The notes beneath the pieces were generated by a model. It ran no database searches and was not told the DNA's origin. It worked only from the letters and a program-made list of their open reading frames with translations. Shown piece after piece: positions 1 through 16,381 of a stretch of DNA of 45,485 bases (its first letter is position 1; every line of letters begins with the position of its first letter). Made by a program: the position numbers and the translations under genes. This DNA comes from an uncultured Bacteroidia bacterium (GTDB lineage: Bacteria > Bacteroidota > Bacteroidia > Bacteroidales > Prolixibacteraceae), in contig CAIXCY010000274.1 in assembly GCA_903918045.1 (NCBI GenBank), positions 1 through 45,485 of the forward strand, in the 5' to 3' direction.

Positions 1-537
1 AACTCACACGACAGTTTTGTGCGCAACTTGTCACACGAACGGGTTCACCGGAGGGACACCAACAACCTGTTCAAGCTGCCACTTAACAAACTTTAATGCA
101 TCGACAAATCCAAATCATACCCTTGCCAAGTTCTCGACCGACTGCAAGACCTGTCATACAACAACTGCCTGGGTACCATCGTCATTTAATCACAATACCG
201 CTACCACCTTCCCGCTGGCAAACAGTCACATCGTGGTGAGCTGCATCAGCTGTCATGCCGCCGGATATGCCGGGATACCAACAACCTGTGTCAGCTGTCA
301 CCTCGATAAATACAATGCCACAACGATGCCGTCGCATACTCTGGCGAAATATCCAACGGATTGCTCTATTTGTCATACCGTGACGGTTTGGACAACTTCA
401 ACGTTTGACCATAATACGACTGCCTTTCCATTGACCGGAACTCACACGACAGTTTTGTGCGCAACTTGTCACACGAACGGGTTCACCGGAGGGACACCAA
501 CAACCTGTTCAAGCTGCCACTTAACAAACTTTAATGC
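1..537 (+). repeat. Near-identical direct repeat, offset 438 bp (two units)
   Basis: Bases 1-99 are identical to bases 439-537, and over the first 200 bases I count only seven differences. The offset of 438 bp is exactly two 73-codon units. The left limit of the identity cannot be seen because the window begins inside it. This indicates recent duplication or gene conversion inside the array. Confidence 0.85.
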
Positions 538-2158
538 GTCTACAAATCCAAATCATACCCTTGCCAAGTTCTCGACCGATTGCAAAACCTGTCATACAAC
601 AACTGCCTGGGCGCCATCGTCATTTAATCACAACACCGCAACCACATTTTCATTAACAGGCAGTCATATCGGTTTAACATGTATAAGTTGCCACACAGCT
701 GGATATGCTGGTATATCAACAGATTGTGTAAGTTGTCATTTAAGTGATTTTAATTCAACCAATAATCCGGGGCATGTGGCTGCCAAGTTTCCAACAGACT
801 GTACACTATGTCATTCAACAACGTCATGGACAACATCAACTTTTAATCATAATACAACCACCTCTTTCCCTTTAACCGGAGCACACATTGGGGTAGACTG
901 TGCCAGTTGTCACACGGCAGGATATGTTGGAATTTCTATTGAGTGCACAAGTTGTCATTTAGCCAATTATAACGCAACAACTATTCCAAATCATACAAGT
1001 GCGCAATTTTCAACAGATTGTAAAACATGTCACACCACATTGGCCTGGGTTCCGTCAACATACAATCATAATGTTGCAACAACTTTCCCCTTGACAGGTG
1101 CTCATATCGGCGTAAGTTGTGTCAGTTGTCATTCCAAAGGTTATGCCGGAATATCCACCGACTGTGTAAGCTGTCACTTAACAAATTTCAATGCAACGAC
1201 GACACCAGCACATGCGACAGCAAAATACCCAACAGATTGCACGTTATGTCATACAACATCAGCATGGGTTCCGTCATCTTTTAATCACAATACAACAACG
1301 GTCTTTCAATTAACAGGTGCCCACACAACTGTCGACTGTGTTATCTGTCATACCAACGGGTTTACGGGTGGCACACCCACTGATTGTGCAAGTTGCCATA
1401 TTGCAAGCTACAACGCATCAGTGAATCCGAATCATATCGCAGCGAAATTTCCAACAGACTGTAAAATATGTCACTCAACGACGGCATGGATTCCAAATTC
1501 TTTTAATCATAATACTGCCACAACCTTTCCTTTAACAGGAAGTCACATTGGCGTTGCCTGCATCAATTGTCACTCAACAGGATACATAGGAATTTCAACG
1601 GCTTGTGTAAGTTGTCATCAAAATGATTACAATGCAACCACAAGTCCGGCACATTTGGTGGCCAAATTTCCTACGGACTGCAAAATATGCCATACCACAA
1701 CACTTTGGGTACCATCAACCTTTAATCATACAACGGGAACAACCTTCCCATTAACCGGGTCCCATATAGGTGTTAGTTGTATTAGTTGCCACACGGCAGG
1801 TTATGCAGGCATATCAACGCTTTGCGTAAGCTGCCATTTAAATGAGTTCAACACGACCAACAATCCGGCACATGCGGTGGCAAAATTTCCAACCAATTGT
1901 GAATTCTGCCATACAGTAACGGTATGGACAACAACAACCTATAATCATGATGCCCAATATTTTCCAATCTATTCCGGAAATCACCAGGGAGCATGGACAT
2001 TATGCACACAATGTCATACTACTGCAACCAATTTTGGTATTTTTAATTGTCTTGTTTGCCATCCTCAGACAACGATGGCTTCGGCTCATAAAGCGTTAAA
2101 GACCTATCTTTATAACAGCACTAATTGTTATGCATGCCATCCGAAAGGAACTTCATAA
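1..2158 (+). CDS. Giant repeat-built multiheme c-type cytochrome, 5' end missing
   Basis: The reading frame is open from the left edge (codons in frame with position 2) to the TAA at 2156-2158, so the true start and any signal peptide lie outside the window. The visible part of about 718 residues contains 30 CXXCH heme-binding motifs in ten successive units of about 73 residues, three per unit. Each unit also carries three further conserved His: one in FNHN, one in TG(S/A)H just before the first CXXCH, and one in NP(N/A)H before the third. This matches a bis-His ligand for every heme. The last unit is divergent and ends in CYACHPKGTS. The protein is Thr/Ser/Asn-rich between hemes. Proteins of this kind carry electrons in the periplasm or at the cell surface; the partner and location are not visible here. 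It converges on the next gene with a 20-base gap. Family call is firm, specific role unknown. Confidence 0.93.
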   Translation, partial: THTTVLCATCHTNGFTGGTPTTCSSCHLTNFNASTNPNHTLAKFSTDCKTCHTTTAWVPSSFNHNTATTFPLANSHIVVSCISCHAAGYAGIPTTCVSCHLDKYNATTMPSHTLAKYPTDCSICHTVTVWTTSTFDHNTTAFPLTGTHTTVLCATCHTNGFTGGTPTTCSSCHLTNFNASTNPNHTLAKFSTDCKTCHTTTAWAPSSFNHNTATTFSLTGSHIGLTCISCHTAGYAGISTDCVSCHLSDFNSTNNPGHVAAKFPTDCTLCHSTTSWTTSTFNHNTTTSFPLTGAHIGVDCASCHTAGYVGISIECTSCHLANYNATTIPNHTSAQFSTDCKTCHTTLAWVPSTYNHNVATTFPLTGAHIGVSCVSCHSKGYAGISTDCVSCHLTNFNATTTPAHATAKYPTDCTLCHTTSAWVPSSFNHNTTTVFQLTGAHTTVDCVICHTNGFTGGTPTDCASCHIASYNASVNPNHIAAKFPTDCKICHSTTAWIPNSFNHNTATTFPLTGSHIGVACINCHSTGYIGISTACVSCHQNDYNATTSPAHLVAKFPTDCKICHTTTLWVPSTFNHTTGTTFPLTGSHIGVSCISCHTAGYAGISTLCVSCHLNEFNTTNNPAHAVAKFPTNCEFCHTVTVWTTTTYNHDAQYFPIYSGNHQGAWTLCTQCHTTATNFGIFNCLVCHPQTTMASAHKALKTYLYNSTNCYACHPKGTS
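1..2158 (+). repeat. Tandem ~219-bp coding repeats of the cytochrome
   Basis: About ten in-frame repeats of about 219 bp (73 codons) make up the whole visible gene. Most copies are diverged at DNA level and conserved mainly as protein. The first about 660 bases use more G/C-ending codons than the copies after about 700, which are A/T-richer. These are protein-coding repeats with no spacer-repeat alternation, so this is not a CRISPR array. Confidence 0.85.
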
Positions 2159-2178
2159 TTCATTCAACGTACGCCTGT

Positions 2179-5100
2179 CTAATGGCTTCCTGTTCTATTT
2201 AATTGTTCATAAACCAATTGCAGAATATTGGTTCTTACATTCAAGTCGCTAAGTTTATTGTTTTCGCGAGTGGGATATACGCGGTTCGACAGAAAAATAT
2301 AGATCAATCCATTGGTTGGATCAGCCCAGAAAAATGTTCCAGTGAAGCCTGAATGACCGAAGCTTTGGGGTGAAACAGCCGGACAAGGGTAGGAATTAGC
2401 CATATCAAATTTCTGATTGTCAATTAAAGGCTTATCGAAACCCAAACCCCTGCGATTGTTGTTTTGAGGGAACTGAACCCTGTTAAATTCTTCGATAGTC
2501 GACCGTTTGAGGTATTCCTTTCCACCGTAAGTTCCAAACTGGACATACATCTGTACAATCTTTGCCAAATCATTCGCCGAGGCAAATAACCCGGCATTAC
2601 CGGAAATCCCTCCAAGGACAGCAGATGCCTCGTCATGCACAGTACTGTGGACTAACCTTTTACGAAATATTGCATCGTATTCGGTGGGAACAATCTGATC
2701 ATCAGAAAATTTCCGGGATGGTCGGTAAGTCATCGTTGTAGCTCCTAACGGGCGATAGAAGTTCTGATCCAGGAAATCGGTATATTTCATTTTTGTCAAT
2801 CTTGAAATCACTTCAGGAACTATAATAAATGAGAGACAACTATACACATATTTCCCGCGAGTTTCAAGAGGCGATTCGCGAATTGCCTTATATACATGTT
2901 TTTTGAATCCCGATTTAAGATACATTCCCGGAGTCACTTCCAGATTGAATTCGCCATTTTGATCAGCCCTGTACCAGCTATTTGAAAGGTTACTCCCCTT
3001 AACTGATTCCTTCCAGAAGGGAAGATAAGGTGCCAATCCGGCTTGATGTGCCAGCAATTCCCTCACTGTAACATCACTCTTGTTGGAAGGATGCAAAAAC
3101 CCCTTTCGCCAATCCTTCCAATAGGTAGAAAATTTCTCGTCGAGAATATATTTCCCATCTTCGTTAAGTTTCATGATTGCAGGAAGCGCTCCGGCAACCT
3201 TAGTTATAGATGCCAGATCATAAATATCATCCATTTGGGAAGGAACACGAGCTTCAAAGGTATGGTAACCATAAGCTTTTTGAAAAATAATTTTTCCATC
3301 CTTGGCAACTAAAACATTACACCCTGGGAAAGCCTTATTTTCCAATGCATTATTTATTATTGAATCGATAGCCTCCTTAAACCTGGTTGAATTTAATCCA
3401 ACCTCTTCAGGGATGGTATATTTTAAACGGATTGGATGATCAATATTCAAACCGGAACCCGTCGGATAAAGAGTATTTATTGGAACAGGTAACTTCCCGC
3501 CACAGGCAATTCCCCCGAATAAAAGCTGGGCTGCCAGTTCTTCATTAATCAAAGTATTCTGATAAGCAATCAATAATCCGCCGGGATGCCCAATCTCATT
3601 TAGCTCCCCAACAGCGTATGGATTTGCAAAAAATACCAGAATGGAATTGTGGATGGATGATATTCGCGATATCAGCTTCCTTAGGTCGTCAGTTACTCCG
3701 TAAGGAGGTGTTTGCTTTACATGTATTGGAGAATTGAACTTAAATGTGGGACGATTCTTACACTCAAAAAGTGAATGAATACCAGTAATTACAAGATTAT
3801 AGTTTCCTAATTTCTTAATCATTTCATTTGCCTCAGACTCGGTAAAATCCTCTGAGAGATTAAAGTAATCAACCTGTGTATAATTGCCCAGCATTTTTTG
3901 AAAAGGGGTTATGACAGCTGACCCAATCGATAATGCAGCGATATGTAAAGTATCAAGACGCAGCAATGGGATAAGATTGTTTTTGTTTTCAAGTAAGGTC
4001 AATGATGACTCAACAGCCAATCTATTAGCATATTGCGCCTCTGTTGAATTAAGCTTATTTAAAAGGCCTGCAACAATTAATGGTTGACGATGACTTAATC
4101 CAGCCATAAATTTAGCAGCCAGCACCCTGCGACATTTAAGATTAATCTGATCCTCCAAAAGTTCCTTATTTTGGATGGCCTCCTTTACTGCCTTAAGCGT
4201 TAACTCGGCATCAACCGGAAACTCAATCACATCATTACCTGCTTTCAGCGCCTGCACATCGTTCCTCCCAGGTTCTCCATAACCGGTTACTCCTCCCATA
4301 TTCATCGCATCTGTGATGATCAACCCCTGGTAGTTCCATTCTTTCCGGATCACCCCTTCTACAGCAGTGTAGGAGAGACTTGCAGGTGAATCACCCATCG
4401 TATTAAGCGAAGGAACCATCAGATGAGCAGTCATAATTCCACCAATTCCCTCTGCGGCCAGCTTCTTAAAAGGAAAAAGCTCAAGACTATCAAGTCGTTG
4501 TCGCGATGCAGGAACGAGGGGTAATGTAAAATGGGAATCAGTTTTCGTATCTCCGTGTCCGGGAAAGTGCTTCGCAACTGCAATTATACCGTTCTCCTGC
4601 AATCCTTTCATAAAAGCGATACTTTTTCGGGCAACCTCATACCGTGAGGCGCCAAACGAACGAATGCCAATAATCGGATTGAGCGGCTCTGAATTAATGT
4701 CAGCAACAGGACCTAAACTCACCTGAACACCAAGTATTTTCAATTGTTTCGCTATTTCAGAAGCGCAACTTTTGATCGTTTGATCGTCAGAGGCCGCTCC
4801 AACTGTGAGATTATAGGGAAATGGCTGAACATCATCCAGGCGCATGCCAGCTCCACACTCAGCATCCATCGCTACAATTAATGGTGTTTTGGATATCGAC
4901 TGATAGTAATTGATAAGTTCTACCTGTCTAACCGCTGTTCCGGAAAAGAAAATCAAACCTCCGAAATTATGTTTTTGAACCATTTCAGCAACGTGAAATT
5001 GTTTCTGCAAGTCTTCACCGGAAGTAACATCGATCCAGATTAGTTGTGCAATTCGTTCATCCGGGGAGAGGGCATTAAACACCGAGTCGACCCATGGATG

Positions 5101-5196
5101 GTTCATATATTTTTTCAGGTCAACCTGCGAATGAGCCTGAGCTGAGAAGAGCAATGCCTGAATTAATAAAAAAATAATTAACTTATATTTTAGCAT
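2179..5196 (-). CDS. NagZ-type beta-N-acetylhexosaminidase (GH3) fused to a serine hydrolase (beta-lactamase fold)
   Basis: A 1005-residue exported protein with a signal peptide (residues 1 to about 22, ending AQAHSQ). The GH3 part has the NagZ signature KHFPGHGD at 209-216, the DSH triad element at 220-222 (His is the acid/base in NagZ enzymes) and the nucleophile Asp296 in TDAMNM. A GH3 C-terminal-like region follows (about 400-575). From about 595 there is a beta-lactamase/esterase-type domain with SITK at 663-666 and HSG at 948-950. The second motif reads YSC (785-787) where relatives usually have YxN or YSD. Expected role: removal of GlcNAc from GlcNAc-MurNAc fragments in the periplasm; the substrate of the serine hydrolase half is unknown. 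It is the last gene of the cell-wall operon, 30 bases after the NagX-like gene. The fusion is, from memory, common in Bacteroidota. Confidence 0.88.
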   Translation of the reverse strand: MLKYKLIIFLLIQALLFSAQAHSQVDLKKYMNHPWVDSVFNALSPDERIAQLIWIDVTSGEDLQKQFHVAEMVQKHNFGGLIFFSGTAVRQVELINYYQSISKTPLIVAMDAECGAGMRLDDVQPFPYNLTVGAASDDQTIKSCASEIAKQLKILGVQVSLGPVADINSEPLNPIIGIRSFGASRYEVARKSIAFMKGLQENGIIAVAKHFPGHGDTKTDSHFTLPLVPASRQRLDSLELFPFKKLAAEGIGGIMTAHLMVPSLNTMGDSPASLSYTAVEGVIRKEWNYQGLIITDAMNMGGVTGYGEPGRNDVQALKAGNDVIEFPVDAELTLKAVKEAIQNKELLEDQINLKCRRVLAAKFMAGLSHRQPLIVAGLLNKLNSTEAQYANRLAVESSLTLLENKNNLIPLLRLDTLHIAALSIGSAVITPFQKMLGNYTQVDYFNLSEDFTESEANEMIKKLGNYNLVITGIHSLFECKNRPTFKFNSPIHVKQTPPYGVTDDLRKLISRISSIHNSILVFFANPYAVGELNEIGHPGGLLIAYQNTLINEELAAQLLFGGIACGGKLPVPINTLYPTGSGLNIDHPIRLKYTIPEEVGLNSTRFKEAIDSIINNALENKAFPGCNVLVAKDGKIIFQKAYGYHTFEARVPSQMDDIYDLASITKVAGALPAIMKLNEDGKYILDEKFSTYWKDWRKGFLHPSNKSDVTVRELLAHQAGLAPYLPFWKESVKGSNLSNSWYRADQNGEFNLEVTPGMYLKSGFKKHVYKAIRESPLETRGKYVYSCLSFIIVPEVISRLTKMKYTDFLDQNFYRPLGATTMTYRPSRKFSDDQIVPTEYDAIFRKRLVHSTVHDEASAVLGGISGNAGLFASANDLAKIVQMYVQFGTYGGKEYLKRSTIEEFNRVQFPQNNNRRGLGFDKPLIDNQKFDMANSYPCPAVSPQSFGHSGFTGTFFWADPTNGLIYIFLSNRVYPTRENNKLSDLNVRTNILQLVYEQLNRTGSH

Positions 5197-5226
5197 CTTT
5201 TTAAATATTAAACAACAAACAGTTAC

Positions 5227-6339
5227 TTACACTTTAATGAAGATCTTCTTTTTATAGAGTACCAGTCCTACAAACCAAAAAAATACGATGTGAAAGAGTG
5301 CAAAGAGCAGTGAAGTGATTTTCTGATCGGTGCACAAAGGAGAAAAAAGGTGCTGAAAAATCCAGGTATACCCATTTACCACGGTACCATTGGCCTCTGT
5401 AATGTGAACAAGGTAAAGAATTGCTTTCACATAAATCCCGGAGAACGCAAAGATAGCCAAAGGGTTCATCCCAAATATCACAAAAAAGGAGGTCCAGCCA
5501 GACCAACCCTTAAGATCGATAATCCAGATCAGCAATGCCAATGAAAGCATTGCCCAACCGGCTGCATATAGAACGTAAGAACTGGTCCAAAGTGGTTTAT
5601 TTATTGGAAACAGAAGACCCCACAAAAATCCGGCGAGTGTACTAGCAACCCCCAATATTACAAGTATTTTCGGAACCTTAATTTTTTCGGTTTCCCGGAT
5701 AATGCCCCCTGCAAGGTAACCTATAATAACAGTGACCACTGCCGGAATAGTACTTAGCAGACCCTCTGGTTCAAATGGGATTCCAAACCCTTTATACATG
5801 TGGTTTACTCCAAGAATGGTCAAATCAAATGGAATAACTGCATTTCCAGAGAGCGAATAAGGGTCACCATTCCCGAACCAGAACAAAATAGCCCAGTACA
5901 CCAACAGAATTACTCCACCTGCAACTGGAAGCAATTTTCGTGGCACAGCGAGAACAAGTAAAGCGCCGATTCCATAGGCAATAGCAATACGCTGAAGAAC
6001 ACCCATAACCCGAAGCTTCGAAAAATCGGTCAATGCTTGCGGAAAAGCATTCAAAAATAATCCAACTGCGAAAATTAACAAGGTTCGTTTTCCAATTCTA
6101 AGCAACGAATCTTTACTCAATGTGTTATTATACTTTGAAAACGAGAAAAACATTGAAACTCCCACTACAAACAAAAAGAATGGGAAAATCAGATCTGTCG
6201 GGGTGCACCCATGCCATTTCGAATGTTCCAGAGGAGCATAAATATATTCCCAGCTTCCCGGATTGTTTACCGTAATCATTGCTGCTATTGTTATTCCACG
6301 CAGCACATCAAGAGCCAGATAGCGTTGACTGGTTTTCAT
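5227..6339 (-). CDS. NagX/DUF5009-family polytopic membrane protein (HGSNAT-like acyltransferase or MurNAc transporter)
   Basis: 370 residues with about ten hydrophobic segments. The N-terminus (LDVLRGITIAAMITVNNPG, then HSKWHGCTPTDLIFPFF) is typical of the heparan-alpha-glucosaminide N-acetyltransferase-like family, often called NagX or DUF5009/DUF1624. Members are proposed to acetylate amino sugars across the membrane. From memory, a protein of Tannerella forsythia encoded in a similar MurNAc locus (MurT) was reported as an inner-membrane MurNAc transporter and may belong to this family; I cannot confirm orthology. It lies between the GHL10-like hydrolase and NagZ, which fits handling of free amino sugars in the periplasm or their import. 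Family call firm, activity uncertain. Confidence 0.8.
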   Translation of the reverse strand: MKTSQRYLALDVLRGITIAAMITVNNPGSWEYIYAPLEHSKWHGCTPTDLIFPFFLFVVGVSMFFSFSKYNNTLSKDSLLRIGKRTLLIFAVGLFLNAFPQALTDFSKLRVMGVLQRIAIAYGIGALLVLAVPRKLLPVAGGVILLVYWAILFWFGNGDPYSLSGNAVIPFDLTILGVNHMYKGFGIPFEPEGLLSTIPAVVTVIIGYLAGGIIRETEKIKVPKILVILGVASTLAGFLWGLLFPINKPLWTSSYVLYAAGWAMLSLALLIWIIDLKGWSGWTSFFVIFGMNPLAIFAFSGIYVKAILYLVHITEANGTVVNGYTWIFQHLFSPLCTDQKITSLLFALFHIVFFWFVGLVLYKKKIFIKV

Positions 6340-6433
6340 AGGATTCAGGATATATGAGGTAATTAATTTATTGATAAATTTCTCAATTTACATAAGCAAA
6401 ATTCCAACCACTTAATTCAATGTTTCAAATCAG

Positions 6434-7939
6434 TTATTTGTTCATTTTAAACCTGACGGGTGAACTTTCTGTATTTGATTTGCTCAGTGCAGTCACTACA
6501 TACCTGAAATGCTTTGGATCAGTTGTATGATTAAGAGTATAGGTTATTGAATTATTTGCTGTAGTCAGAAAAATTCTTGCCGGGTTCCGGGTATTTTTTC
6601 GCTGCCAGCGTGTGAACTGATAAAGTACAAATGATTTGGTATTCGCCCCCCCTTCCCAGCTAAGATGAAGCTGTCCGTTGGAGAGGTTCATTTGTGCATT
6701 GAGTGGCTCCTGCGGAGTTATCTCGCCGACTCGTCCATTTAAAGGGGGAAGTGCAGGATAACGATAGAGCCGATCCTGCACTTTCTGGTGAAGGTCGAGG
6801 GGATTCTTCCGCAGGAATTTTGCACTGTAGAATACACTTCCGGCTATCGTTTTGAGTTTGCGGTTTAGTTTGATCTGGTTAACTATTTCATCAGCGCTCT
6901 GCCATGATTTCTCTTTAGACTCAGGGTCTAATTTGTAAAGTCCATGTCCGATAAAAAGTTGGGCACCGTAAGCGTGATGACTCCACCAATCGGCAATGAT
7001 TTTATAATCAGCAATTTCCTTTCCAATTTCCCAGTAGACCTGTGGCGCTACGTAATCAATCCATTGGTTATATTCCCATTTCAAAATATCGGCATAGAGA
7101 TCATCGAAATTAGTTTGTCCGGCCTTGGTCTTCGAACCTAAGGGATCCTTTTCAGCATTTCGCCATACCCCAAAAGGTGAAATTCCGAATTCAACCCATG
7201 GCTTTATCGACTTAATCGTGTCATGCAATTGCTTCACTATTAAATCGACATTATTCCTCCTCCAATCCTCTTTTTCATTGGCATGAAAGCCCCCGGGATA
7301 TTCCTGAAACGTTTTTTCATCCGGAAATTCGACCCCCGAAATGCGATAAGGGTAAAAATAATCATCCATATGGATCGCGTCAATATCATAACGTCGAACA
7401 ATATCACCAACAATTTTTGCAACATAATTTCGCGTCTGTGGTAATCCCGGATCAAATATTCTGGTCTTCCCATAGGTCACAAACCACTCAGGATGGGTAT
7501 TGGAGATGTGTTCAGAGGAACTTTTGTTCACACTTACATCCGAAACCGCCCTGTAAGGATTTAGCCAAACATGCAGATCGATCCCCCTTTTATGGCATTC
7601 CAAGGAAGCAAATTCAAGTGGATCATAAAAGGGATCGGGCTTTTTACCCTGTTTACCTGTCAGCCACTGCGACCATGGTTCAAATTCAGAGGCATAAAAC
7701 GCATCAGAGGCCGGTCTAATTTGAAAGATAACCGTATTCATATTGTACTGTTTGACTAAATCGAGCAATTCGATGAATTCCTTTTGCTGCTGAGCGGTCG
7801 TGAGGTTAGACGCTGAAGGCCAGTCAATATTGGCAATTGTGGCAATCCAGACTGCTCTCATCTCACGCTTGGGATATTTCGATGCAATTAAATTTGAGGT
7901 GAAAAACAATAAAATACTTATGACAATAAGTTTCTTCAT
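6434..7939 (-). CDS. GHL10/DUF187 family glycoside hydrolase (DigH/YngK-like)
   Basis: 501 residues with an N-terminal signal peptide (MKKLIVISILLFFTSNLIAS). The catalytic domain begins RAVWIATIANIDWPS and contains the family features NTVIFQIRPASDA, GIDLHVWLNPYRA and DAIHMDDYFYPY. This is the glycosyl-hydrolase-like 10 family. E. coli DigH (YddW) of this family cuts peptidoglycan glycan strands that have lost their stem peptides. A fibronectin type III-like domain occupies roughly the last 100 residues (QLHLSWEGG, FVLYQF). Within an operon that also encodes an amidase, this suggests hydrolysis of denuded peptidoglycan. The gap to AmpG upstream is 82 bases and to NagX downstream 94 bases. The substrate is inferred from context. 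Confidence 0.85.
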   Translation of the reverse strand: MKKLIVISILLFFTSNLIASKYPKREMRAVWIATIANIDWPSASNLTTAQQQKEFIELLDLVKQYNMNTVIFQIRPASDAFYASEFEPWSQWLTGKQGKKPDPFYDPLEFASLECHKRGIDLHVWLNPYRAVSDVSVNKSSSEHISNTHPEWFVTYGKTRIFDPGLPQTRNYVAKIVGDIVRRYDIDAIHMDDYFYPYRISGVEFPDEKTFQEYPGGFHANEKEDWRRNNVDLIVKQLHDTIKSIKPWVEFGISPFGVWRNAEKDPLGSKTKAGQTNFDDLYADILKWEYNQWIDYVAPQVYWEIGKEIADYKIIADWWSHHAYGAQLFIGHGLYKLDPESKEKSWQSADEIVNQIKLNRKLKTIAGSVFYSAKFLRKNPLDLHQKVQDRLYRYPALPPLNGRVGEITPQEPLNAQMNLSNGQLHLSWEGGANTKSFVLYQFTRWQRKNTRNPARIFLTTANNSITYTLNHTTDPKHFRYVVTALSKSNTESSPVRFKMNK

Positions 7940-8021
7940 CTTAATAAATTTTCAATTTAATATTTACTCTGTGTCAATCCAGTTTCAGGCCTGGGGAATT
8001 CGCCTTTGCTCCCCTTCTCCC

Positions 8022-9899
8022 TTAACTCAACCTGCTCTTAATTCCATACTCCTTATCAATTTTAAGAAAAGGAATAAGAGCCAATGTGGGTATTGCGCAG
8101 ATTAAAACCCAAATAAAGAAGTGGTTATAACCCAGTAGGTCCTGTAACCAGCCGGCAATCATACCTGGAAGCATCATTCCCAATGCCATAAACCCGGTAC
8201 AAATCGCGTAATGTGCTGTTTTGTGCGCTCCGTCGGCAAAGTAGATCATATAAAGCATAAAAGCAGTAAAACCAAACCCGTAACCAAATAGTTCAATGGC
8301 AACAGCAATATTAATAATTATCAAACTCTCAGGTGTAAACCATGATAAATAGAGGTATGAAAGATGTGGTAACGTAATACACAAGGCCATAGGCCAGATC
8401 CAATATTTTAGCCCCTTACGTGAGGCTGCAATTCCCCCGATAATCCCCCCTAAGGTGAGTGAAATCACACCTACCGTACCATATACCAATCCAACCTGTC
8501 CGGTAGTCAGGCCTAATCCGCCCACTTCACGTGCATCAAGAAGGAAAGGAGGTGACATTTTAACAAGCATTGCTTCGCCTAACCGATAGAGTAACAAAAA
8601 TGCAATCGCCAATCCTGCCCTTTTTTTTTGAAAGAAAGATGCGAAGGTATTTCCAAATTCCCTGAAAATATCGGTTGCCGAATGCGTTTCTGTCGCGTGA
8701 TCCGAAAAGGGACGAGGCAGTACAAATCGATGATAAATAAAAATCAACAGGAAAAACCCGGCCAGAATAAAAAAGGTGATGCTCCAGGCGAGTCTTAAAT
8801 TTCCTGAAATTCCACGAAATTCAGAAAGAACCTTGTCACGGAGCTTATAGTCGAGCTGAACGACAAGATACGCCGGCTTTTGCCAGTTTTGATGGGTAAA
8901 AACCAACCGTTCACCATAAATGATTGATATACTCTTGTCGCCGTCACTAAGCCGTGAGTTAAGTACCACTGTCTCGCCTAGGCGTGGTTGTCTTGTAAGC
9001 CTGACAGCAACAATTCCGGCATTCCCAACACTTCCATATAAGCCTGCCGAATCAGTTTTGTGTTTTCCAAAATTGTCTTTTATGAAAGTCCCAAGCGGCA
9101 AAGAAATATATTTTGTCCACCATGAAACTTTTTTCTTGCCCTCCTCAAGAATTGACGTCTCTTCGCTGGTAGAAAACCCATTTTTTCGGTTTTCATCCGA
9201 TGCGAAATATTTAATTCGGTTAAGTGAATCGGCCTTTATATTTGCGACATCAAGTATCATCCTGGCAGGAAAGGCCACAAAGGTCATTTTACCAGTTTGA
9301 GGTATCAATGTATTGCTGGTTTGTAATTTAACCTCCTTATGTGCTTCGACAGAAGTCTGTACTGTAAATTCCAATGGCTCCAACCCGGTAAAACTTTCAA
9401 GAGAACCGGCAATAATAATTAAAAGTCCTTGTCCGGTAATCATAGCCAGGCGGTAAAATGTGCTGCGAATACCTACAAAGAAGGACTGTTGCGAGCTATC
9501 CAAAGCCAGCATATAAAACCCGTCTGCTGCAATATCATGAGTCGCCGAGCTGAAAGCAATCAGCCAAAGGATCGTCAGGGTCGCCTGAAAGAAAAATGGA
9601 ACCGGGATAAGAAATGCCACACCTGCCAGTCCCGCTCCAATAAGAAGCTGCATGGTAATGATCCACCACCGTTTAGTTCTAAGCATATCGACAAACGGAC
9701 TCCAGAAGGGCTTAATAACCCATGGTAAATAAAGCCAGCTAGTATAAAGTGTAATATCGGTATTTGATATACCAAGCCGCTTGTACATAATAACAACCAC
9801 CGTCATTGCAACTACGTATGGCAGACCCTGTGCAAAATATAGCGAAGGAATCCAAGCCCAGGGTGAGGTGATCTTTCCTTGCCGGTAATTTTGGTTCAT
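8022..9899 (-). CDS. AmpG-like muropeptide permease (MFS) with a large inserted beta-sandwich domain
   Basis: 625 residues, against about 400-500 for usual AmpG proteins. The N-terminal half has the AmpG-like start (WAWIPSLYFAQGLPYVV), LPWVIKPFWSPFVD and HDIAADGFYML. After about five membrane segments there is a hydrophilic insertion, roughly residues 170-365, before the next membrane helix at about 370-390. Its second part (VRLTRQP ... LVFTHQNWQKPAYLVVQLD) resembles Calx-beta-like sandwich repeats with an FT..NW..P signature. The C-terminal half is again a standard MFS bundle. AmpG imports GlcNAc-anhydroMurNAc (peptides) into the cytoplasm. If topology follows the family, the insertion faces the periplasm. 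The genes on both sides are cell-wall enzymes, supporting the assignment. Confidence 0.82.
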   Translation of the reverse strand: MNQNYRQGKITSPWAWIPSLYFAQGLPYVVAMTVVVIMYKRLGISNTDITLYTSWLYLPWVIKPFWSPFVDMLRTKRWWIITMQLLIGAGLAGVAFLIPVPFFFQATLTILWLIAFSSATHDIAADGFYMLALDSSQQSFFVGIRSTFYRLAMITGQGLLIIIAGSLESFTGLEPLEFTVQTSVEAHKEVKLQTSNTLIPQTGKMTFVAFPARMILDVANIKADSLNRIKYFASDENRKNGFSTSEETSILEEGKKKVSWWTKYISLPLGTFIKDNFGKHKTDSAGLYGSVGNAGIVAVRLTRQPRLGETVVLNSRLSDGDKSISIIYGERLVFTHQNWQKPAYLVVQLDYKLRDKVLSEFRGISGNLRLAWSITFFILAGFFLLIFIYHRFVLPRPFSDHATETHSATDIFREFGNTFASFFQKKRAGLAIAFLLLYRLGEAMLVKMSPPFLLDAREVGGLGLTTGQVGLVYGTVGVISLTLGGIIGGIAASRKGLKYWIWPMALCITLPHLSYLYLSWFTPESLIIINIAVAIELFGYGFGFTAFMLYMIYFADGAHKTAHYAICTGFMALGMMLPGMIAGWLQDLLGYNHFFIWVLICAIPTLALIPFLKIDKEYGIKSRLS

Positions 9900-9988
9900 A
9901 ATTGGTCTGTTAGTGTGTAACTTATTTCACTTTCCGGGTAAGACATCCCACCTTAAACTTAGCAAATCAAACAATATAATTCCATCCT

Positions 9989-12472
9989 TTAAGGCAACCG
10001 TTCAAAAGAATACCCTTTTTGTTTAAGCGTCTTAATAATTTGATCAAATGTGCTGTAAAATTTATCGGTTCGGTCGGGATGAGTACCTAAATGAATCAAA
10101 ATAATTGCACCATTAAGATGGTCCGGATTAATCTTTTCGAATTCAAATAAGTGCTCTGCCAGAATCTTCGAAGATTTATAATTCAGCATCTGTGGCGTTG
10201 TATAATCACCATTCGTACCAACTCCCGGCGTGAAATTAATCAATTGCATCGTACGATCACCACTCCAACGGCTGATTTTGGTATTGTACCACTCATAGGG
10301 TGGAAGAAAATATTTCACCGTTGAAGCTTGAATCCCGAATTTCAGAAGTTCGTTAAGGTTACCGGTCATATCGGAATCAAATTGATAACGGGTGATTAAC
10401 ATCGAATCTTGCTTCTCCCACGGTGCGTAAAGCAAATGCCGGTCTGAATGGGGACCGATAAAATGTTTGTCATGTAGCATACGTTCAATAACTTTCTTAA
10501 AACGGGGATTCCTCAAAAAATTACCCGTAAGGAAAAAAGAACCTTTAATTTTCGCATTGGCAAGGCTTGATAATATATGATCAGCTCCTTCACCATATTC
10601 GTCAGCTGAAAAGATCAGATAAACAGTTTTTTTCTTTTTATCAAGCCTTACAACTGCACCATTGGCATCAACCTCCAAATTTTCCAGCTTAAGCTGGTGA
10701 ATTCCCTCCTTTTCAACTGTAGAGAGGTAGTAACTCAAACTTGCAGTGCCATCCATTGTAGGCTCATTTGAAGTATAATCACCCATATCATCGTGATAAA
10801 CTGCAAGGCCATGTTGAAACGAGGGGAAATCATCCGGCCTGTATAATTTAACTTCAATATGATTATTGAAAATATCACGGTATACCGGACCATCCACAAG
10901 GCCGCCAAAAGTAGGTTCTTTGGTCAGCCACGTGATCGAGGAGTGTGGCCAGTGCGGATACACTCCGCCGGCAGGTAAACCACAAATCATACTTGTACCC
11001 CACGGGTTACATCCAAATAACCAATCCCGCAACGCACCCTCCATCTCCGTATAGGTTGAATCGGAAGTCGCTTCAAAATAGAGTCTGGCCTGTGTTATTG
11101 CAGCAACAGTCAGATTATTGGAGCACCAGATATATGGGATTCCATTAAGAAACGGATCATTCTTCCCTCGTTCATAGATTACCTTTAAACCGCGATTCAT
11201 AAATTCGCTGTAGGTTTTTGAATCTTCGTTACTCAGGATTGCCTGATTGGCATGTCCCATATTTACAAAAGGGTAATACTGATAATGCCGTGCAGTTCCC
11301 CGCTCCATCCATGGTGTAATTGGTTCAAGCTGTCCCCAGTAATTTGATTGTTTCCGATAATATTCTGATCCAGTTAGCCTGTAAAGTTCAGTTGCTGCAA
11401 GTTCAAGGTCATCCACGTAGTTTTCTTCTTCATAAAAGTAAGGAGAGACAGTGCATGCCGTTTGAGTGACACCCAGATCAGAGAGGCCAAAGGCATAAGC
11501 CTGACGAGCTTTTTGGGCAAGCATTTTACTGAAAACGGGATCAATTTTCGAAAATATTCCAGCACCCAGGGCAAAAGCTGCACTAAACTTCCCCGCTACG
11601 GATGAAACGCCGGTAGTCCGGTTCTTGTATTTTGATAATCCCTGAACTTTTCCGGTCACAAAATAAACAGGCCGGAATAACCCGTTTCCATACGAAGCAG
11701 TATCCTTATTGGGGAGTCTGAACCCTCTATGGTCACGGTCGTCTGCAACCTGATTATACATCTCTACACTATCCGGATTCATCTTTACAAGCCACTCCAA
11801 ACCCCAGCGAATTTCGTTAAGAATATCAGGAATACCATCTGCTCCCGGTAAACCGGAGGCCTTATATTGGTCACCAAATACTTCCGGATTTTTCAAAAAG
11901 GCAAACTGCATTTGATAAACTGCATTTGCCGAAGTAGTTACATATTGAAGGTAATCTGTTGCATCATGCCACCCCCCTATCACATCGATAATCTGGCCAC
12001 TTTTTGTGGGATGGTCGACTATAAACCCATCATGGGTATGGCACGAATCCTTCAGAAAGGGATTATAACCACATCGCTGCTGACGCATGTAGTTGAGTGT
12101 ATAGTCAGCTGTCCCTTTGTAGACCTCAGTAGAAATTGGAAATTCAGCGGATTTGGTATCTCCCGACCTAAGAAAATATCGGCCTGGTGTTGAAAAAATT
12201 GAAAAATTGAGGCGTGCCGCACCTTTCATACCCCATTTCGAGCCGTTATAATTCAGTGGAACATTTTTAAACACTATTATCCCTGTCTCTGCATCAACCA
12301 ACTCAAAATTATGTAGTTCTACATTTTCATCGGATAAAAATACGGCTACCTTAACAGACCCTGGAAGGTAACCCAACTGATTAATCCGAATCCACGATGA
12401 ACCGTAAGTCAACGATGATCCAAACAAAATAATAACTATAAATACAATTCGATTGATCATATTAATTATCAT
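9989..12472 (-). CDS. Glycoside hydrolase family 9 fused to a polysaccharide deacetylase (NodB) domain
   Basis: 827 residues. There is an N-terminal signal or anchor (about 1-24), then a cellulase N-terminal Ig-like domain (WIRINQLGYLP, 27-37), and a GH9 (alpha/alpha)6 domain with the paired Asp motif GGWHDATDY (166-174) and the acid Glu570 in TSNEPTMDGTA. Residues about 605-827 form a NodB-like domain with HSDRH (675-679), FLPPYEWYN and LIHLGTHPDRTDKF. Its first motif is FSADEYGEG rather than the usual TFDDG, as I recall for a Bacteroidota subfamily. GH9 includes endoglucanases and also exo-glucosaminidases, and deacetylases act on GlcNAc or MurNAc polymers. Between SpoIID and AmpG genes, an amino-sugar polymer such as bare glycan strands is a more likely substrate than cellulose; this is inference. 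An alternative ATG is at residue 5. Confidence 0.85.
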   Translation of the reverse strand: MIINMINRIVFIVIILFGSSLTYGSSWIRINQLGYLPGSVKVAVFLSDENVELHNFELVDAETGIIVFKNVPLNYNGSKWGMKGAARLNFSIFSTPGRYFLRSGDTKSAEFPISTEVYKGTADYTLNYMRQQRCGYNPFLKDSCHTHDGFIVDHPTKSGQIIDVIGGWHDATDYLQYVTTSANAVYQMQFAFLKNPEVFGDQYKASGLPGADGIPDILNEIRWGLEWLVKMNPDSVEMYNQVADDRDHRGFRLPNKDTASYGNGLFRPVYFVTGKVQGLSKYKNRTTGVSSVAGKFSAAFALGAGIFSKIDPVFSKMLAQKARQAYAFGLSDLGVTQTACTVSPYFYEEENYVDDLELAATELYRLTGSEYYRKQSNYWGQLEPITPWMERGTARHYQYYPFVNMGHANQAILSNEDSKTYSEFMNRGLKVIYERGKNDPFLNGIPYIWCSNNLTVAAITQARLYFEATSDSTYTEMEGALRDWLFGCNPWGTSMICGLPAGGVYPHWPHSSITWLTKEPTFGGLVDGPVYRDIFNNHIEVKLYRPDDFPSFQHGLAVYHDDMGDYTSNEPTMDGTASLSYYLSTVEKEGIHQLKLENLEVDANGAVVRLDKKKKTVYLIFSADEYGEGADHILSSLANAKIKGSFFLTGNFLRNPRFKKVIERMLHDKHFIGPHSDRHLLYAPWEKQDSMLITRYQFDSDMTGNLNELLKFGIQASTVKYFLPPYEWYNTKISRWSGDRTMQLINFTPGVGTNGDYTTPQMLNYKSSKILAEHLFEFEKINPDHLNGAIILIHLGTHPDRTDKFYSTFDQIIKTLKQKGYSFERLP

Positions 12473-12514
12473 TAGATGAGATTAATTCAATTTGGAAACG
12501 GGTACAGAGGAGTT

Positions 12515-13876
12515 TCAAACCCCGATTCCTATAAAACCCTCCCCATACTTTTCTTTAAGTTCAGCTCCCCTGAAATAATGAGCTAAGATTTCAGAATAAC
12601 GATATCCCTGATCACCCATTACTGCAGCTCCGATCTGACATAATCCAACACCATGACCCCAGCCGGAACCATATAAGATAAAATTGACATCCTCACCATT
12701 TACAAGCTTTTCAACTATAAATGCTGAACTTAAAAGATGGGACTGAGATAATATTTTCCTAATTTGAAGCTCCTTACCTACGATGAGAGTTCGAAGGGAA
12801 CCAACAATTTTTAATTTGATAATCCTTCCGGATCCACCTCGTTCAACGGGAATCATATTTTCAATAATCCCGAAATCGATTCCTGAACGACTTTTAACCA
12901 GTTCGCTCAATTCAGATTGGGAATAAACGAGCTTCCAGCGAAAAAAATTGTTCGTTTCCTGATCATAGTCATTTAAGACCTGCCTAAGAATTTTTTTATC
13001 GGATGTGTTACAAAAAACATCCGAATTACCAAGTATCCATGCTGCGGCTTCGGCTTCGCCCGTAAGATCAGGCACTAAATTAGTGGTTTGCAACCGATTG
13101 TCGAAAATCGTCTGCAAATAGGGATGGTTAACAGGTTCCCACACATTTTCAAACAGTTCGGTGATTCCTCCGCAACATTTTGAGAAACGGGCGTCACAGA
13201 TAAATCCATCAAATAAAAGCACCTCTCCGGAAGTCTGCAATACAGCCTGTTCAACACGAGGGTCTGCTGATCGTGTAATTCCCTGATAGCGCTGACAATG
13301 GTCATCAGCACAGACGTCAAAATTAAGGTGATCCTCTCTGTCATACCAGCGGATCAACTCATCTGCCGAACCAAAAGTCGTTTGGTATTCTTGACCATCA
13401 TACTTCAACCTCTTATTTTTCTGAATTTGAGCCAAAAGCCAGCTTCTGGAAATGACCGCATGAGCTTTAAGAAATTCCAAAGAGGCGGTTGCAGACATTT
13501 CTGAGGAGATTACACTAACCAAATATTCCTCGATACTGATTTCATTAATAACCTGAATCGTATCCTGGTAACGCATAAAACCCAATGACCCCTTGAACAC
13601 CTGATCCTCTTTGCGTTCCCAGTGAAAATCGATCCCTATGGTTACCTTTGGAAGGATAAAGCTTGAAGTTAGTGGTTCTAGCGGACGAAAATTTATCCGG
13701 TCAGGACACATCCAACTTTGATCCCCTGAGACAAGGCAAATTCCCGATCCAAGGACTTTAACCTTTAAGATTCCGCTGAAAATAATGGCTAAATGTTCGA
13801 TCAGATAATCACCTTTCAGCGTACAGGAGACCTCCAAATCTGTCATTATTCCAACTTTGATTACGGGAATATCCAT
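12515..13876 (-). CDS. SpoIID/LytB-domain protein, putative lytic transglycosylase for denuded peptidoglycan, no visible signal peptide
   Basis: 453 residues. The SpoIID core is clear: EEYLVSVISSEMSATASLEF with the presumed catalytic Glu126, followed by KAHAVISRSWLL, and near the C-terminus GSGWGHGVGLCQIGA. SpoIID of Bacillus is a lytic transglycosylase acting on glycans from which an amidase has removed the peptides. This protein is longer than the minimal domain, with extra segments that include the cysteines of VCADDHC and SKCCGG. The N-terminus MDIPVIKVGIMTDLEVSC is not a signal peptide, and only 36 bases separate it from the DUF4922 gene, so an unseen leader is unlikely. Localisation is therefore puzzling. 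It could be cytoplasmic, or exported by another route. Confidence 0.85.
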   Translation of the reverse strand: MDIPVIKVGIMTDLEVSCTLKGDYLIEHLAIIFSGILKVKVLGSGICLVSGDQSWMCPDRINFRPLEPLTSSFILPKVTIGIDFHWERKEDQVFKGSLGFMRYQDTIQVINEISIEEYLVSVISSEMSATASLEFLKAHAVISRSWLLAQIQKNKRLKYDGQEYQTTFGSADELIRWYDREDHLNFDVCADDHCQRYQGITRSADPRVEQAVLQTSGEVLLFDGFICDARFSKCCGGITELFENVWEPVNHPYLQTIFDNRLQTTNLVPDLTGEAEAAAWILGNSDVFCNTSDKKILRQVLNDYDQETNNFFRWKLVYSQSELSELVKSRSGIDFGIIENMIPVERGGSGRIIKLKIVGSLRTLIVGKELQIRKILSQSHLLSSAFIVEKLVNGEDVNFILYGSGWGHGVGLCQIGAAVMGDQGYRYSEILAHYFRGAELKEKYGEGFIGIGV

Positions 13877-13912
13877 AAGTAATCAATAGGATTAAAATCC
13901 TGTGGGCATGAA

Positions 13913-14845
13913 TTACAACTTATTAATAAGTGTCAGAACAGATTGAGTATCAAAACAAACCTGTTCAAAAATATCGATTACATCTTCTTCTGTAATTTTA
14001 AGGAAATCCTCCTCACGAGGTGTAACAAGTAACCCCCCCATATCTACCGAAGCGGGACTCAATAAAATCTGACTATCTCCGGTATTGTAAAATTGGCGTG
14101 GACGGTGCTCTGTTCGGGGGAAAATATGGATTGTCCAGGTTTTGCGGTCAAAAGAAGCTATTATATTTAGCATTGGTTCCGGATCATCATGCCTTGCTAT
14201 CTCCAGCTGATTATAAATTTTATTAAATACAGCAATCAGATTAGCTTTGTTATTGCTGGTTAAAGTTATAATACCTCTTTGATATTCAGGCCAGTGAGAA
14301 ACTTTTACGCCATCAATGGTACGAACTTCACGGCAACAAATTTCACTGGAGAGATCATTTTCCACAGGTATAAAACCTTTAATTCCTGCCTGAAAATGAA
14401 GGTGATCCGGGGCTGAAGCACCGCATTTGGGACCATTATAATAAATGACAAATTTGCTTAAATGGGCCGCCAGTTCAACCATCGTTTCAAAATTCTGCAA
14501 AATTCGCTGATCCACATGATTAATATTCGCGATAGTCAGATGCTCGGGGAATATTGGAAAGGGATTTACTAATATAATATAATCGATACCATAAGGGATC
14601 CAACGCTGAAGTTTCGGTAAATTATCCTTGCACAAAAAACAGGATCGTTCAAGAATAGACTGCTCATCGACTTTGGCAACAGAAGAGACAATTCGCTCAG
14701 GGTTATACTGAACGTCAATATTAAAATCCCCAAAATCAAAAGTCTTAACTTTTACATTCTTTAATCCTTCATAATTCCGACCAACCAGATCCCAATCTAA
14801 GATCTGTTCCTGGACTAGTGCTCTTGCTTTTTCTGAAAAATCCAT
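13913..14845 (-). CDS. DUF4922 protein, HIT/GalT-superfamily nucleotidyltransferase-like
   Basis: 310 residues, no signal peptide, expected cytoplasmic. The histidine-triad-like motif DHLHFQ (147-152) follows GPKCGASAP, and NPFPIFPEHLTI (94-105) matches the GalT/GDP-hexose-phosphorylase-like fold. CFLC (69-72) could bind a metal. Enzymes of this superfamily transfer or phosphorolyse nucleotidyl groups, for example GDP-galactose phosphorylase, Ap4A phosphorylase and galactose-1-phosphate uridylyltransferase. The DUF4922 substrate is, to my knowledge, not established. It sits between a GT2 gene and the SpoIID gene in the cell-wall operon with gaps of 49 and 36 bases, suggesting a link to nucleotide sugars or phosphorylated amino sugars. 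Confidence 0.8.
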   Translation of the reverse strand: MDFSEKARALVQEQILDWDLVGRNYEGLKNVKVKTFDFGDFNIDVQYNPERIVSSVAKVDEQSILERSCFLCKDNLPKLQRWIPYGIDYIILVNPFPIFPEHLTIANINHVDQRILQNFETMVELAAHLSKFVIYYNGPKCGASAPDHLHFQAGIKGFIPVENDLSSEICCREVRTIDGVKVSHWPEYQRGIITLTSNNKANLIAVFNKIYNQLEIARHDDPEPMLNIIASFDRKTWTIHIFPRTEHRPRQFYNTGDSQILLSPASVDMGGLLVTPREEDFLKITEEDVIDIFEQVCFDTQSVLTLINKL

Positions 14846-14894
14846 CTTAACGTTTATCTACTTACTATATTAAAAAATAAATTCTGAATAATAA

Positions 14895-16379
14895 TTACTG
14901 TTGATCTTTCACCAATTTCTGGCGACTCCATAATTCAAGAGTTCGTACTTTATCTTTATAAAAATTATGAGCGTTCATCGTTGCTATGTCAAGTGACGAA
15001 TCGGAATTTTCATCCCAGCGGCGACAAAGGTACAAAGGATTATATATCCTTCCAATCCTAAAATGACGACTTATAGCCAGTCCAACTGCATAATCTTCAC
15101 CATAACTAACATTTGGCACCTGAATTTCTCTTAAAACCGGAGTATAAAAAGCACGCGGCGCTCCTAACCCATTTATTCTCAATGCATTATTTCTTCCATT
15201 GTCAGGAGTCCACTCCTTATGATCAATTAAACCGGGAGGAATTGATTCCAGATTAAAATTAACCATTTGGTAAGACCCAATTACCATGGCACACCTTTGT
15301 TCGTAAAAAGTGTCGACGATACGCTTAATAACCGTATTATCGATGTATAAATCGTCACTATCGAGCTGAATAGCGAACTTGCCACAACTGGCATGATTGA
15401 CAGCTTCATTCCAGCAGCCCCCAATTCCAAGGTCGTTTCGTTTTGGAATTACATGAATAATGCGGTCATCCGACTCTGCAAAAGTACGGATAAGTTCAGT
15501 TGTACCATCGGTGGAGTGGTTATCAACAATAATAAGATTGAAATCAAATTCAGTTTCCTGACTTAATACTGAATTGATTGCATCACTTATGGTTTTGGCC
15601 CTGTTTCTGACCGGGATTATTACTGAAGCTTCCAATTCAAAATCGTCATCCGAAAAAAAGAGTTCACGAAATATGGGAGGGAGCCAGGCTCCTACTGCTT
15701 TGAGGTGTAAAGTACAGGCCTGCTCCATTTCAATTTGTTTAAAACGGTTACGGGTATCAACATAATCGAAGAGTTTCTCACCCGATTTGCGTGTATCCAA
15801 TTCAAGCTCGGTATATAAAATTTCAGGCAAATGAATCAGTTTATGTTGCTGTGAAACCTTCAATCGCAAATCATACAATCCGGCAAGCTCAAAGAGTTGA
15901 TCCATTTTTTCAACTGCCGCTACCATTATATCAGTACGATACAACATCAGTGAGCCAAAGTCAAAATCGTCGCGCAGACTACCATCCAAATATTCGATTA
16001 CCGGATGAGGCTTTACAATCTCATGTATTTGTTCAAAAAAATCGGAATAGACCATTCCTGCAGATGTAGCTTCTGAGACCTGCATCATCCGGGAAAGGGC
16101 ATTTTGTCCGAGGTCAAACGGTAAGCTCTTTGTACAAATTAACGTATAACGTGTGTTGATTTTTTGTGTAAACTCCCTTATTGTTTGAGTTGAAAATAAA
16201 TTTCCATTGGATATTCCAACAACATCCAACGCATCAGGAATCACCGCTGGATCTCCGATCAGGATAATCCGGGCTACAACGCCGGATGACCTTAAGGCTT
16301 TAAGCGTTTTTTTAATTTCCGCATTTCGATCAACAGGAAGGACACAAGTGATCAAATCAGGAATTGTCGGATTTTTCAT
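14895..16379 (-). CDS. Tandem glycosyltransferase family 2 protein, N-terminal copy degenerate
   Basis: 494 residues, no membrane segments seen. The C-terminal half is a good GT2 domain: SVIIPVRNRAKTI (252-264), LIIVDNHSTDGT (282-293), the DSDD metal motif at 340-343 and GEDYAVGLAISRHF later. The N-terminal half (about 8-200) resembles a second GT-A fold: LITCVLPVDRNAEI, MVYSDFFE where the acidic motif would be, and FDFGSLMLYRTDIM. It lacks a clear nucleotide-sugar DxD and is probably inactive or regulatory. The acceptor and donor are unknown. It starts two bases after the amidase stop, so it is certainly cotranscribed with it. A glycosyltransferase in a catabolic operon is unexpected. Confidence 0.8.
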   Translation of the reverse strand: MKNPTIPDLITCVLPVDRNAEIKKTLKALRSSGVVARIILIGDPAVIPDALDVVGISNGNLFSTQTIREFTQKINTRYTLICTKSLPFDLGQNALSRMMQVSEATSAGMVYSDFFEQIHEIVKPHPVIEYLDGSLRDDFDFGSLMLYRTDIMVAAVEKMDQLFELAGLYDLRLKVSQQHKLIHLPEILYTELELDTRKSGEKLFDYVDTRNRFKQIEMEQACTLHLKAVGAWLPPIFRELFFSDDDFELEASVIIPVRNRAKTISDAINSVLSQETEFDFNLIIVDNHSTDGTTELIRTFAESDDRIIHVIPKRNDLGIGGCWNEAVNHASCGKFAIQLDSDDLYIDNTVIKRIVDTFYEQRCAMVIGSYQMVNFNLESIPPGLIDHKEWTPDNGRNNALRINGLGAPRAFYTPVLREIQVPNVSYGEDYAVGLAISRHFRIGRIYNPLYLCRRWDENSDSSLDIATMNAHNFYKDKVRTLELWSRQKLVKDQQ

Positions 16380-16381
16380 AG

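Follow-up and report, generated by a model that had tools for sequence, protein, structure and literature searches.

The window analysed here, the first 45,485 bases of contig C274 (CAIXCY010000274.1) from an uncultured Prolixibacteraceae bacterium of the phylum Bacteroidota, opens inside the gene of a giant multiheme c-type cytochrome that we call wire2. The genome comprises 5.36 Mb in 281 contigs and is 98.8% complete with 4.0% contamination. A second contig of the same genome, C14, carries an operon for a candidate electron conduit through the outer membrane and, probably, the missing front of the wire2 gene. The cytochrome part of the window is laid out as follows.

Positions 2–2158, forward strand: C-terminal part of wire2, a giant multiheme c-type cytochrome (718 amino acids, 30 CXXCH motifs, stop codon included; 5′ end cut by the contig start)
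Positions 1–855, forward strand: DNA tandem repeat with a period of 438 bp (two units)
Positions 2–184, forward strand: incomplete three-heme unit at the contig edge
Positions 185–1939, forward strand: eight full three-heme units of 73–74 amino acids each (starts near 185, 404, 623, 842, 1061, 1280, 1502 and 1721, from pattern search and alignment)
Positions 1940–2155, forward strand: three-heme C-cap, a homologue of the one that ends the 37-heme cytochrome on C14

The 30 CXXCH motifs compare with a mean of 0.4 and a maximum of 4 by chance in 2000 residue shuffles, and Pfam recognized Cytochrome_C7 (PF14522) in ten stretches (E 1.3e-33), with 115 bits against a gathering cut-off of 24.8. An earlier sequence-only reading had described a unit of about 73 residues with three CXXCH and three further conserved His, one spare His per heme and 30 heme motifs in the visible part, all of which we recovered. 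We aligned 32 four-unit stretches from the window and its relatives, all picked to be in register and ~49% identical or more. In each of the four units, no substitution occurs at the six Cys, at the His of the three CXXCH or at the three spare His (FNH, TGxH, NPxH). Outside CXXCH the window piece holds 29 His and no Cys. A wider alignment of 60 rows was discarded because it swelled to 448 columns, which we ascribed to six-heme-type rows slipping register. The regular array proposed by that reading applies to the three-heme units; the last ~80 amino acids are a distinct three-heme C-cap and no repeat unit, 66% identical over residues 2–114 of 117 to the product of C14:119961–120305, and in several relatives the repeat is a six-heme pair of units, as described below.

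The reading frame runs open to the contig edge with neither a start nor a stop ahead of it, and bases 1–99 recur exactly from base 439; this 438-bp repeat likely broke the assembly at the window start. Within the genome, matches to the window protein fall on C14 and C274 only. At the end of C14 we found a homologous open frame of 1339 amino acids with 54 CXXCH, a signal-peptide-like start and no stop. By sequence, the missing front of wire2 probably lies here, as befits the earlier claims that the gene extends leftwards and that its product should bear a Sec signal, which is present in Sec-type form on this probable front. Gene order in related genomes, combined with sequence, makes it probable that the C14 and C274 pieces are one gene. 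In genome G081, where the site lacks a second cytochrome gene, the barrel gene shares a contig with homologues of the three genes that follow the window cytochrome (71, 74 and 72% identity), and the end of C14 and the start of C274 are therefore neighbours in gene order. A C-terminal piece adjoins the same GH3-type gene in G087, G094, G086 and G089, and front pieces follow the barrel in G000, G094, G086 and G091, all of them cut at contig ends. In the genome of the window itself, a single N-terminal piece and a single C-terminal piece were found to lack a counterpart. Together these show 54 + 30 = 84 motifs, one fewer than the module rule given below would have, because one unit in the C14 giant wire is shortened to 52 amino acids with two motifs rather than three.

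Contig C245 of G087 matches window positions 5–11808 at 99.6% identity (11.8 kb) and extends 192 bases further left. Left of the window start, 159 aligned columns are in phase with the C14 tail and 72% identical to it. At its left edge (locus L101 against window 1–440) stands a further similar two-unit block, and C245 has 32 motifs against 30 in the window. The two assemblies disagree at the array edge, in copy number or in how the edge was assembled. A direct C14–C274 junction with a gap of ~30 bases was given up, as C245 reads differently to the left of window position 1.

The C14 genes ahead of this front form a conserved operon, so that the recovery of gene and neighbours proposed by the sequence-only reading has been achieved for the neighbours, with the two gene pieces still unjoined in the assemblies.

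C14, gene 1 (upstream end): inner-membrane protein of di-heme-b type, 261 amino acids
C14, gene 2: [4Fe-4S]/flavin adenine dinucleotide (FAD) oxidoreductase of ferredoxin/flavin type, 443 amino acids (Pfam Pyr_redox and Fer4)
C14, gene 3: 20-heme cytochrome, 535 amino acids
C14, gene 4: 37-heme wire (wire1), 918 amino acids
C14, gene 5: outer-membrane beta-barrel, 565 amino acids, followed by the second, giant wire
C14, L008:12207-16223: probable front of the giant wire

We examined this arrangement at 116 loci, 23 of which were removed for having a barrel identical to another's. The five-gene order is complete at 64 of the 93 distinct loci; 24 are too short upstream and five differ, with the first wire absent at L056, a split gene at L060 and L196, and parts missing within reach at L140 and L191. 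Some genomes of the window's genus carry a second giant wire after the barrel. We found the barrel in 59 of 140 family genomes and in 37 of 395 genomes drawn from the phylum at large, where several matches are weak or partial. A scan of genome contigs returned 387 stretches with the pattern, 296 of which encode a relative; the titles among the best 80 of these 296 include Draconibacterium, Maribellus, Mariniphaga, Prolixibacter, Mangrovibacterium, Saprospiraceae and Melioribacteraceae. Iron corrosion by Prolixibacter was set aside as a function, since the title of PMC8368055 names nitrite as the cause. At ten loci two or more cytochrome open reading frames (ORFs) precede the barrel, some being frameshift splits or cut-off 20-heme genes. 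At L143, L148, L154 and L180 a long wire and a 12–16-heme form stand side by side before the barrel, as if both lengths were used.

In Emticicia oligotrophica DSM 17448 (L200) the whole operon, with cytochromes of 23 and 40 hemes, lies on pEMTOL02, a 100-kb plasmid of this cultured strain, beside ccsA. Its position on a plasmid together with ccsA suggests that the conduit can move between species. Upstream ccsA on the same strand was seen at 4 of the 64 full-order loci, and the genome of the window has one PF01578 match for a c-heme assembly protein.

Comparing wires across these loci revealed a common architecture. We counted motifs in 84 distinct complete wires (only untruncated ORFs bearing an HG motif close to their start were kept) and found 12–85 per protein. 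Heme number is 1 mod 3, that is 10 + 3n, in 75 of them over a range of 13–85; the wires share ancestry and are not an independent sample for this rule. Under a slightly stricter filter that left 82 wires, seven motifs lie within the first 190 amino acids in 76 and three within the last 80 in 77. Wires are built of a 7-heme N-cap, n three-heme units and a 3-heme C-cap, with n from 1 to 25. Spare His track hemes one for one (slope 1.03, r 0.996), and residues per heme average 25.6. The longest intact genes on single contigs encode 2146 amino acids with 85 hemes (L191) and 2071 amino acids with 82 hemes (L193). By contrast with the wires, the 20-heme partner has exactly 20 motifs in 71 of 75 distinct complete sequences, 19 in one and 23 in three.

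Judging from unit-to-unit identity, the real repeat in several relatives is a six-heme pair of units. The pairing is clear in L106, L058, L153 and L167 among nine wires tested, with identity of 0.66–0.89 at lag 2 versus 0.36–0.41 at lag 1, and is strongest in L106 (0.89 versus 0.37). The three pieces from the window's own genome pair weakly (0.63–0.68 versus 0.59–0.64; window, 0.63 versus 0.59), and L191 and L193 gave no lag value because the unit pattern missed their units. Between window units, silent sites are near saturation (proportion of synonymous differences, pS, 0.79; of nonsynonymous differences, pN, 0.23). We computed the ratio of nonsynonymous to synonymous substitution rates (dN/dS) from unsaturated unit pairs only: for the window it is 0.11 (7 usable pairs of 28), for the two C14 genes 0.13 (24 of 91) and 0.12 (11 of 36), for L106 0.07 (25 of 45) and for L058 0.06 (10 of 28). 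With silent sites nearly saturated, little protein change and low dN/dS, most units appear to be old copies kept under selection.

The partner proteins point to a known type of conduit. All 65 distinct inner-membrane proteins of at least 230 amino acids carry two WX3HX13H motifs with SGXXG between them, the hallmark of the inner-membrane protein of the porin–cytochrome conduits PCC3 and PCC4, which has been likened to a di-heme-b ferric reductase domain (He et al., PMC5566968). The barrel model, built from a 77-sequence alignment, reached a predicted local distance difference test score (pLDDT) of 84 and a predicted template modelling score (pTM) of 0.66, with ~22 strands and a small N-terminal beta domain; in Foldseek, the best 50 of its 295 Protein Data Bank (PDB) matches (E ≤ 0.001) were all outer-membrane barrels, porins and ushers among them, at modest TM-scores. 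The profile of the 20-heme partner matches GSU1996 (3OV0; E 1.6e-6). A hydrophobic N-terminal segment is present in 81 of 82 wires and 73 of 75 20-heme partners.

By gene content and inner-membrane motif, the Bacteroidota operon matches PCC3, the proteobacterial systems being compared by description only. PCC3 was published in 2017 from mostly Proteobacteria and described as a barrel, a very large and variable cytochrome, a cytochrome of ~20 hemes and an inner-membrane protein of ~300 amino acids with the motif pair; its large cytochromes have a low residue-per-heme ratio, sequence repeats and up to 85 motifs in one protein (PMC5566968). In the Bacteroidota we likewise found an adjacent barrel gene, a cytochrome of mostly 20 hemes (PCC3, about 21), a very large cytochrome of low ratio and the motif pair. 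Gallionellaceae PCC3 have extracellular subunits of 10–35 hemes and a small cytochrome of 21, 24 or 27 (PMC10734462, 2023), so there, too, the heme number of the big cytochrome varies and that of the small one less. The Bacteroidota systems differ from PCC3 in their host, in an extra membrane-tethered [4Fe-4S]/FAD oxidoreductase, in a partner mostly fixed at 20 and, in some genomes of the window's genus, in the second giant wire after the barrel. Their heme numbers are mostly 10 + 3n, whereas one Gallionellaceae cluster has 10–16 and 18 (PMC10734462).

Other systems resemble the wires in part. Like them, GSU1996 (3OV0; TIGR04257) strings c7-like three-heme domains one after another along a single chain; it has 12 hemes, a crystal structure, edge-to-edge heme distances of 3–5 Å and one His-Met heme per domain (PMC10138318), whereas the wires carry one spare His per heme as predicted ligand. 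The TIGR04257 (nanowire_3heme) cut-off of 40 was missed by the window piece (33 bits) and wire1 (32.9) and exceeded by L191 (48.3). The MtrA/DmsE family (TIGR03508; cut-off 192.2) was missed by wire1 (42.8), the 20-heme partner (38.3) and L191 (84.3). Against the polymerised filaments OmcS, OmcE and OmcZ, the window piece had no PDB match, and three weak matches to the unit profile (E 0.09–0.37) included no filament cytochrome. The earlier contrast with polymerised small cytochromes is fair in this respect, with the qualification that single-chain triheme wires were already known from GSU1996 and PCC3 cytochromes. A Burkholderiales cluster with 24- and 49-heme cytochromes also has a pair of large cytochromes ahead of its barrel, and the bigger of the pair varies as CXXCH domains are gained and lost; the cluster differs in being proteobacterial with an OmbB-like porin, and our comparison follows its description only (PMC7399161). 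By the account in PMC7082337, the record for a single protein, 113 hemes, is held by an archaeal cytochrome of 'Ca. Methanoperedens manganireducens' described in 2020, which shares the size above 80 hemes and differs in being archaeal and an S-layer fusion protein.

Within the phylum, the seven-gene cluster Bacteroidetes_1 (PMC8258643, 2021) and the Trout Bog porin–cytochrome candidates (PMC6344600, 2019) combine multiheme cytochromes with a barrel. They may be the same system as the window operon, as far as passage-level descriptions allow comparison; those passages give no module rule or giant chain. Among the open-access papers listed, supplementary files lying outside this scope, none was recognized as an account of the operon, and a search combining PCC3 with Bacteroidota returned no PCC3 among the matches listed, which is weak evidence of absence. 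As far as this literature shows, the new elements are a Bacteroidota operon with a flavoprotein, the rule of a fixed 20 and 10 + 3n hemes, the six-heme super-repeat and the second giant wire in the window's genus.

Taken together, these results lead us to propose, with a probability of roughly 0.7, that wire2 is a secreted, single-chain, all-bis-His cytochrome forming the long conducting element of a PCC3-like porin–cytochrome conduit. It would consist of a 7-heme N-cap, ~25 three-heme units and a 3-heme C-cap, totalling 84 hemes or more should C14 and C274 be one gene, and its gene is probably among the larger cytochrome genes known. Its conserved gene neighbours suggest that wire2 probably conducts electrons through the cell surface and outwards from it. 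At the inner membrane, NAD(P)H or ferredoxin would exchange electrons with the membrane-tethered oxidoreductase, and this with the di-heme-b protein, the quinone pool or both. The inner-membrane module would in turn connect to the 20-heme cytochrome of fixed length spanning the periplasm, and this to a wire seated in or on the barrel and to an acceptor or donor outside the cell. The periplasmic site of the partner and the extracellular site of the wire are predicted by analogy with PCC3, and heme occupancy, stacking, surface location, direction of electron flow and the outer partner we likewise infer. A partner that crosses the periplasm would explain its fixed size, and a wire reaching outward would be free to vary, lengthening as modules of three (often six) hemes are duplicated in tandem and shortening as they are lost. 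MtrA measures ~100 Å for 10 hemes, or roughly 10 Å per heme (PMC5566968); at this rough spacing a wire of at least 84 hemes would reach 80–90 nm.

Several observations weigh against this proposal. No assembly seen joins C14 and C274, and further units probably lie between them, so the full length is at least what is seen; support for such units is moderate, because the first 300 bases of the window–C245 overlap are only 90% identical as against 99.6% over 11.8 kb. The PCC3 assignment draws on description, gene content and motif rather than sequence-level comparison. A crude hydropathy scan of one protein gave the genome's own inner-membrane protein four hydrophobic segments where the PCC3 form has five, and among the best 50 of 295 structure matches to the barrel there was no MtrB-type barrel. 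Of 140 family genomes, 81, some of them incomplete, yielded no barrel, and nine of 84 wires break the module rule (seven at 0 mod 3, two at 2 mod 3). With no secretion-tail family in Pfam scans of the three wire pieces of this genome, and a lipobox in only 2 of 82 wires, surface location has no support from a sorting signal. AlphaFold2 on four window units with the 32 aligned stretches yielded no usable model (mean pLDDT 44, pTM 0.18). The single-chain heme wire of the sequence-only reading is thus partly borne out: one chain, a spare His per heme, low dN/dS and a porin–cytochrome neighbourhood speak for it, and heme stacking stays a prediction. It remains our best reading.

That no contig joins C14 and C274 also allows the 54-heme and 30-heme chains to be different neighbouring cytochromes, and some relatives do have two wire genes side by side, among the ten loci with several cytochrome ORFs noted above. 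Two genes would, however, need a further C-terminus and a further N-terminus in a genome that is nearly complete and has one unpaired piece of each, and intact genes of 82–85 hemes exist elsewhere; we therefore think two genes quite unlikely. The missing sorting mark bears on two other alternatives. A giant chain might chiefly store charge, as an electron capacitor in the periplasm or on the surface, and conduct only secondarily. GSU1996 has been described as having a capacitor function (PMC10138318), the same function is one of the options named for cytochromes of this kind (PMC7399161), and variation by whole modules suits capacity as much as length. A pure store would, however, need no barrel in fixed order, and the regular pairing of the wires with barrel and 20-heme partner makes storage an unlikely primary role. 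Alternatively, the wire rather than the 20-heme protein could span or fill the periplasm, as the Sec-type start without further signals would permit and for which 13-heme forms are short enough. Against this stand the nearly fixed heme number of the partner beside 12–85 in the wire, and the length of an 80-heme chain, which at ~10 Å per heme would far exceed the width of a periplasm; we regard a periplasmic bridge as distinctly improbable.

Going beyond the surface conductor proposed for wire2, the Bacteroidota may share a length-tunable wire, in which a fixed periplasmic part is joined to a surface cable whose length is set by the count of three- or six-heme modules and tuned by selection. 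We hold this wider proposal tentatively, as possible but short of probable. Were it true, two cables would coexist in the window's species, one of 37 hemes and one of at least 84 if C14 and C274 are one gene, and related species would form a natural length series of 13–85 hemes on one architecture, in which reach and conductance could be compared. Such a series would allow electron flow to be measured against heme number within one chain. Three PCC3 papers treat mostly or only Proteobacteria (PMC5566968, PMC10734462, PMC12442390), and a 2025 paper calls PCC3 functionally unverified (PMC12442390). With cultured species among its members (Draconibacterium, Maribellus, Mariniphaga, Prolixibacter, Mangrovibacterium and Emticicia), the large and coherent set from Bacteroidota makes the PCC3 question testable. 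Such genes also break assemblies, every second-wire piece at this site in the window's genus being cut at a contig end.

Plasmid searches with the 20-heme protein and the flavoprotein gave a side observation. The 20-heme protein matched 35 records, the best 12 of which were listed, and the flavoprotein 26, of which 10 were listed. The two proteobacterial plasmid matches to the 20-heme protein examined each proved to be a small cytochrome c3 cluster that also encodes a 2Fe-2S protein, and one adjoins a hydrogenase; these two were the matches examined outside Bacteroidota. In L202 (Alteromonas macleodii plasmid) and L203 (Spirosoma plasmid), a 2Fe-2S or FAD-binding protein, a hypothetical protein and a cytochrome c3-like protein stand together, with the hydrogenase alongside in Alteromonas. 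These small clusters are possibly simpler relatives of the inner-membrane module.

Downstream of wire2, the window continues with genes on the opposite strand.

Positions 2179–5196, reverse strand: convergent neighbour with GH3 and beta-lactamase domains, outside the system and used as synteny anchor
Positions 2179–19444, reverse strand: cell-wall/sugar gene run (GH3 + beta-lactamase, unassigned 370-amino-acid protein, GHL10, MFS/BT1, GH9 + deacetylase, SpoIID, DUF4922, glycosyltransferase 2, Golvesin_C)

The run, whose MFS/BT1 protein we take to be AmpG-like, looks like one that turns over peptidoglycan or polysaccharide, with no apparent relation to the cytochrome.

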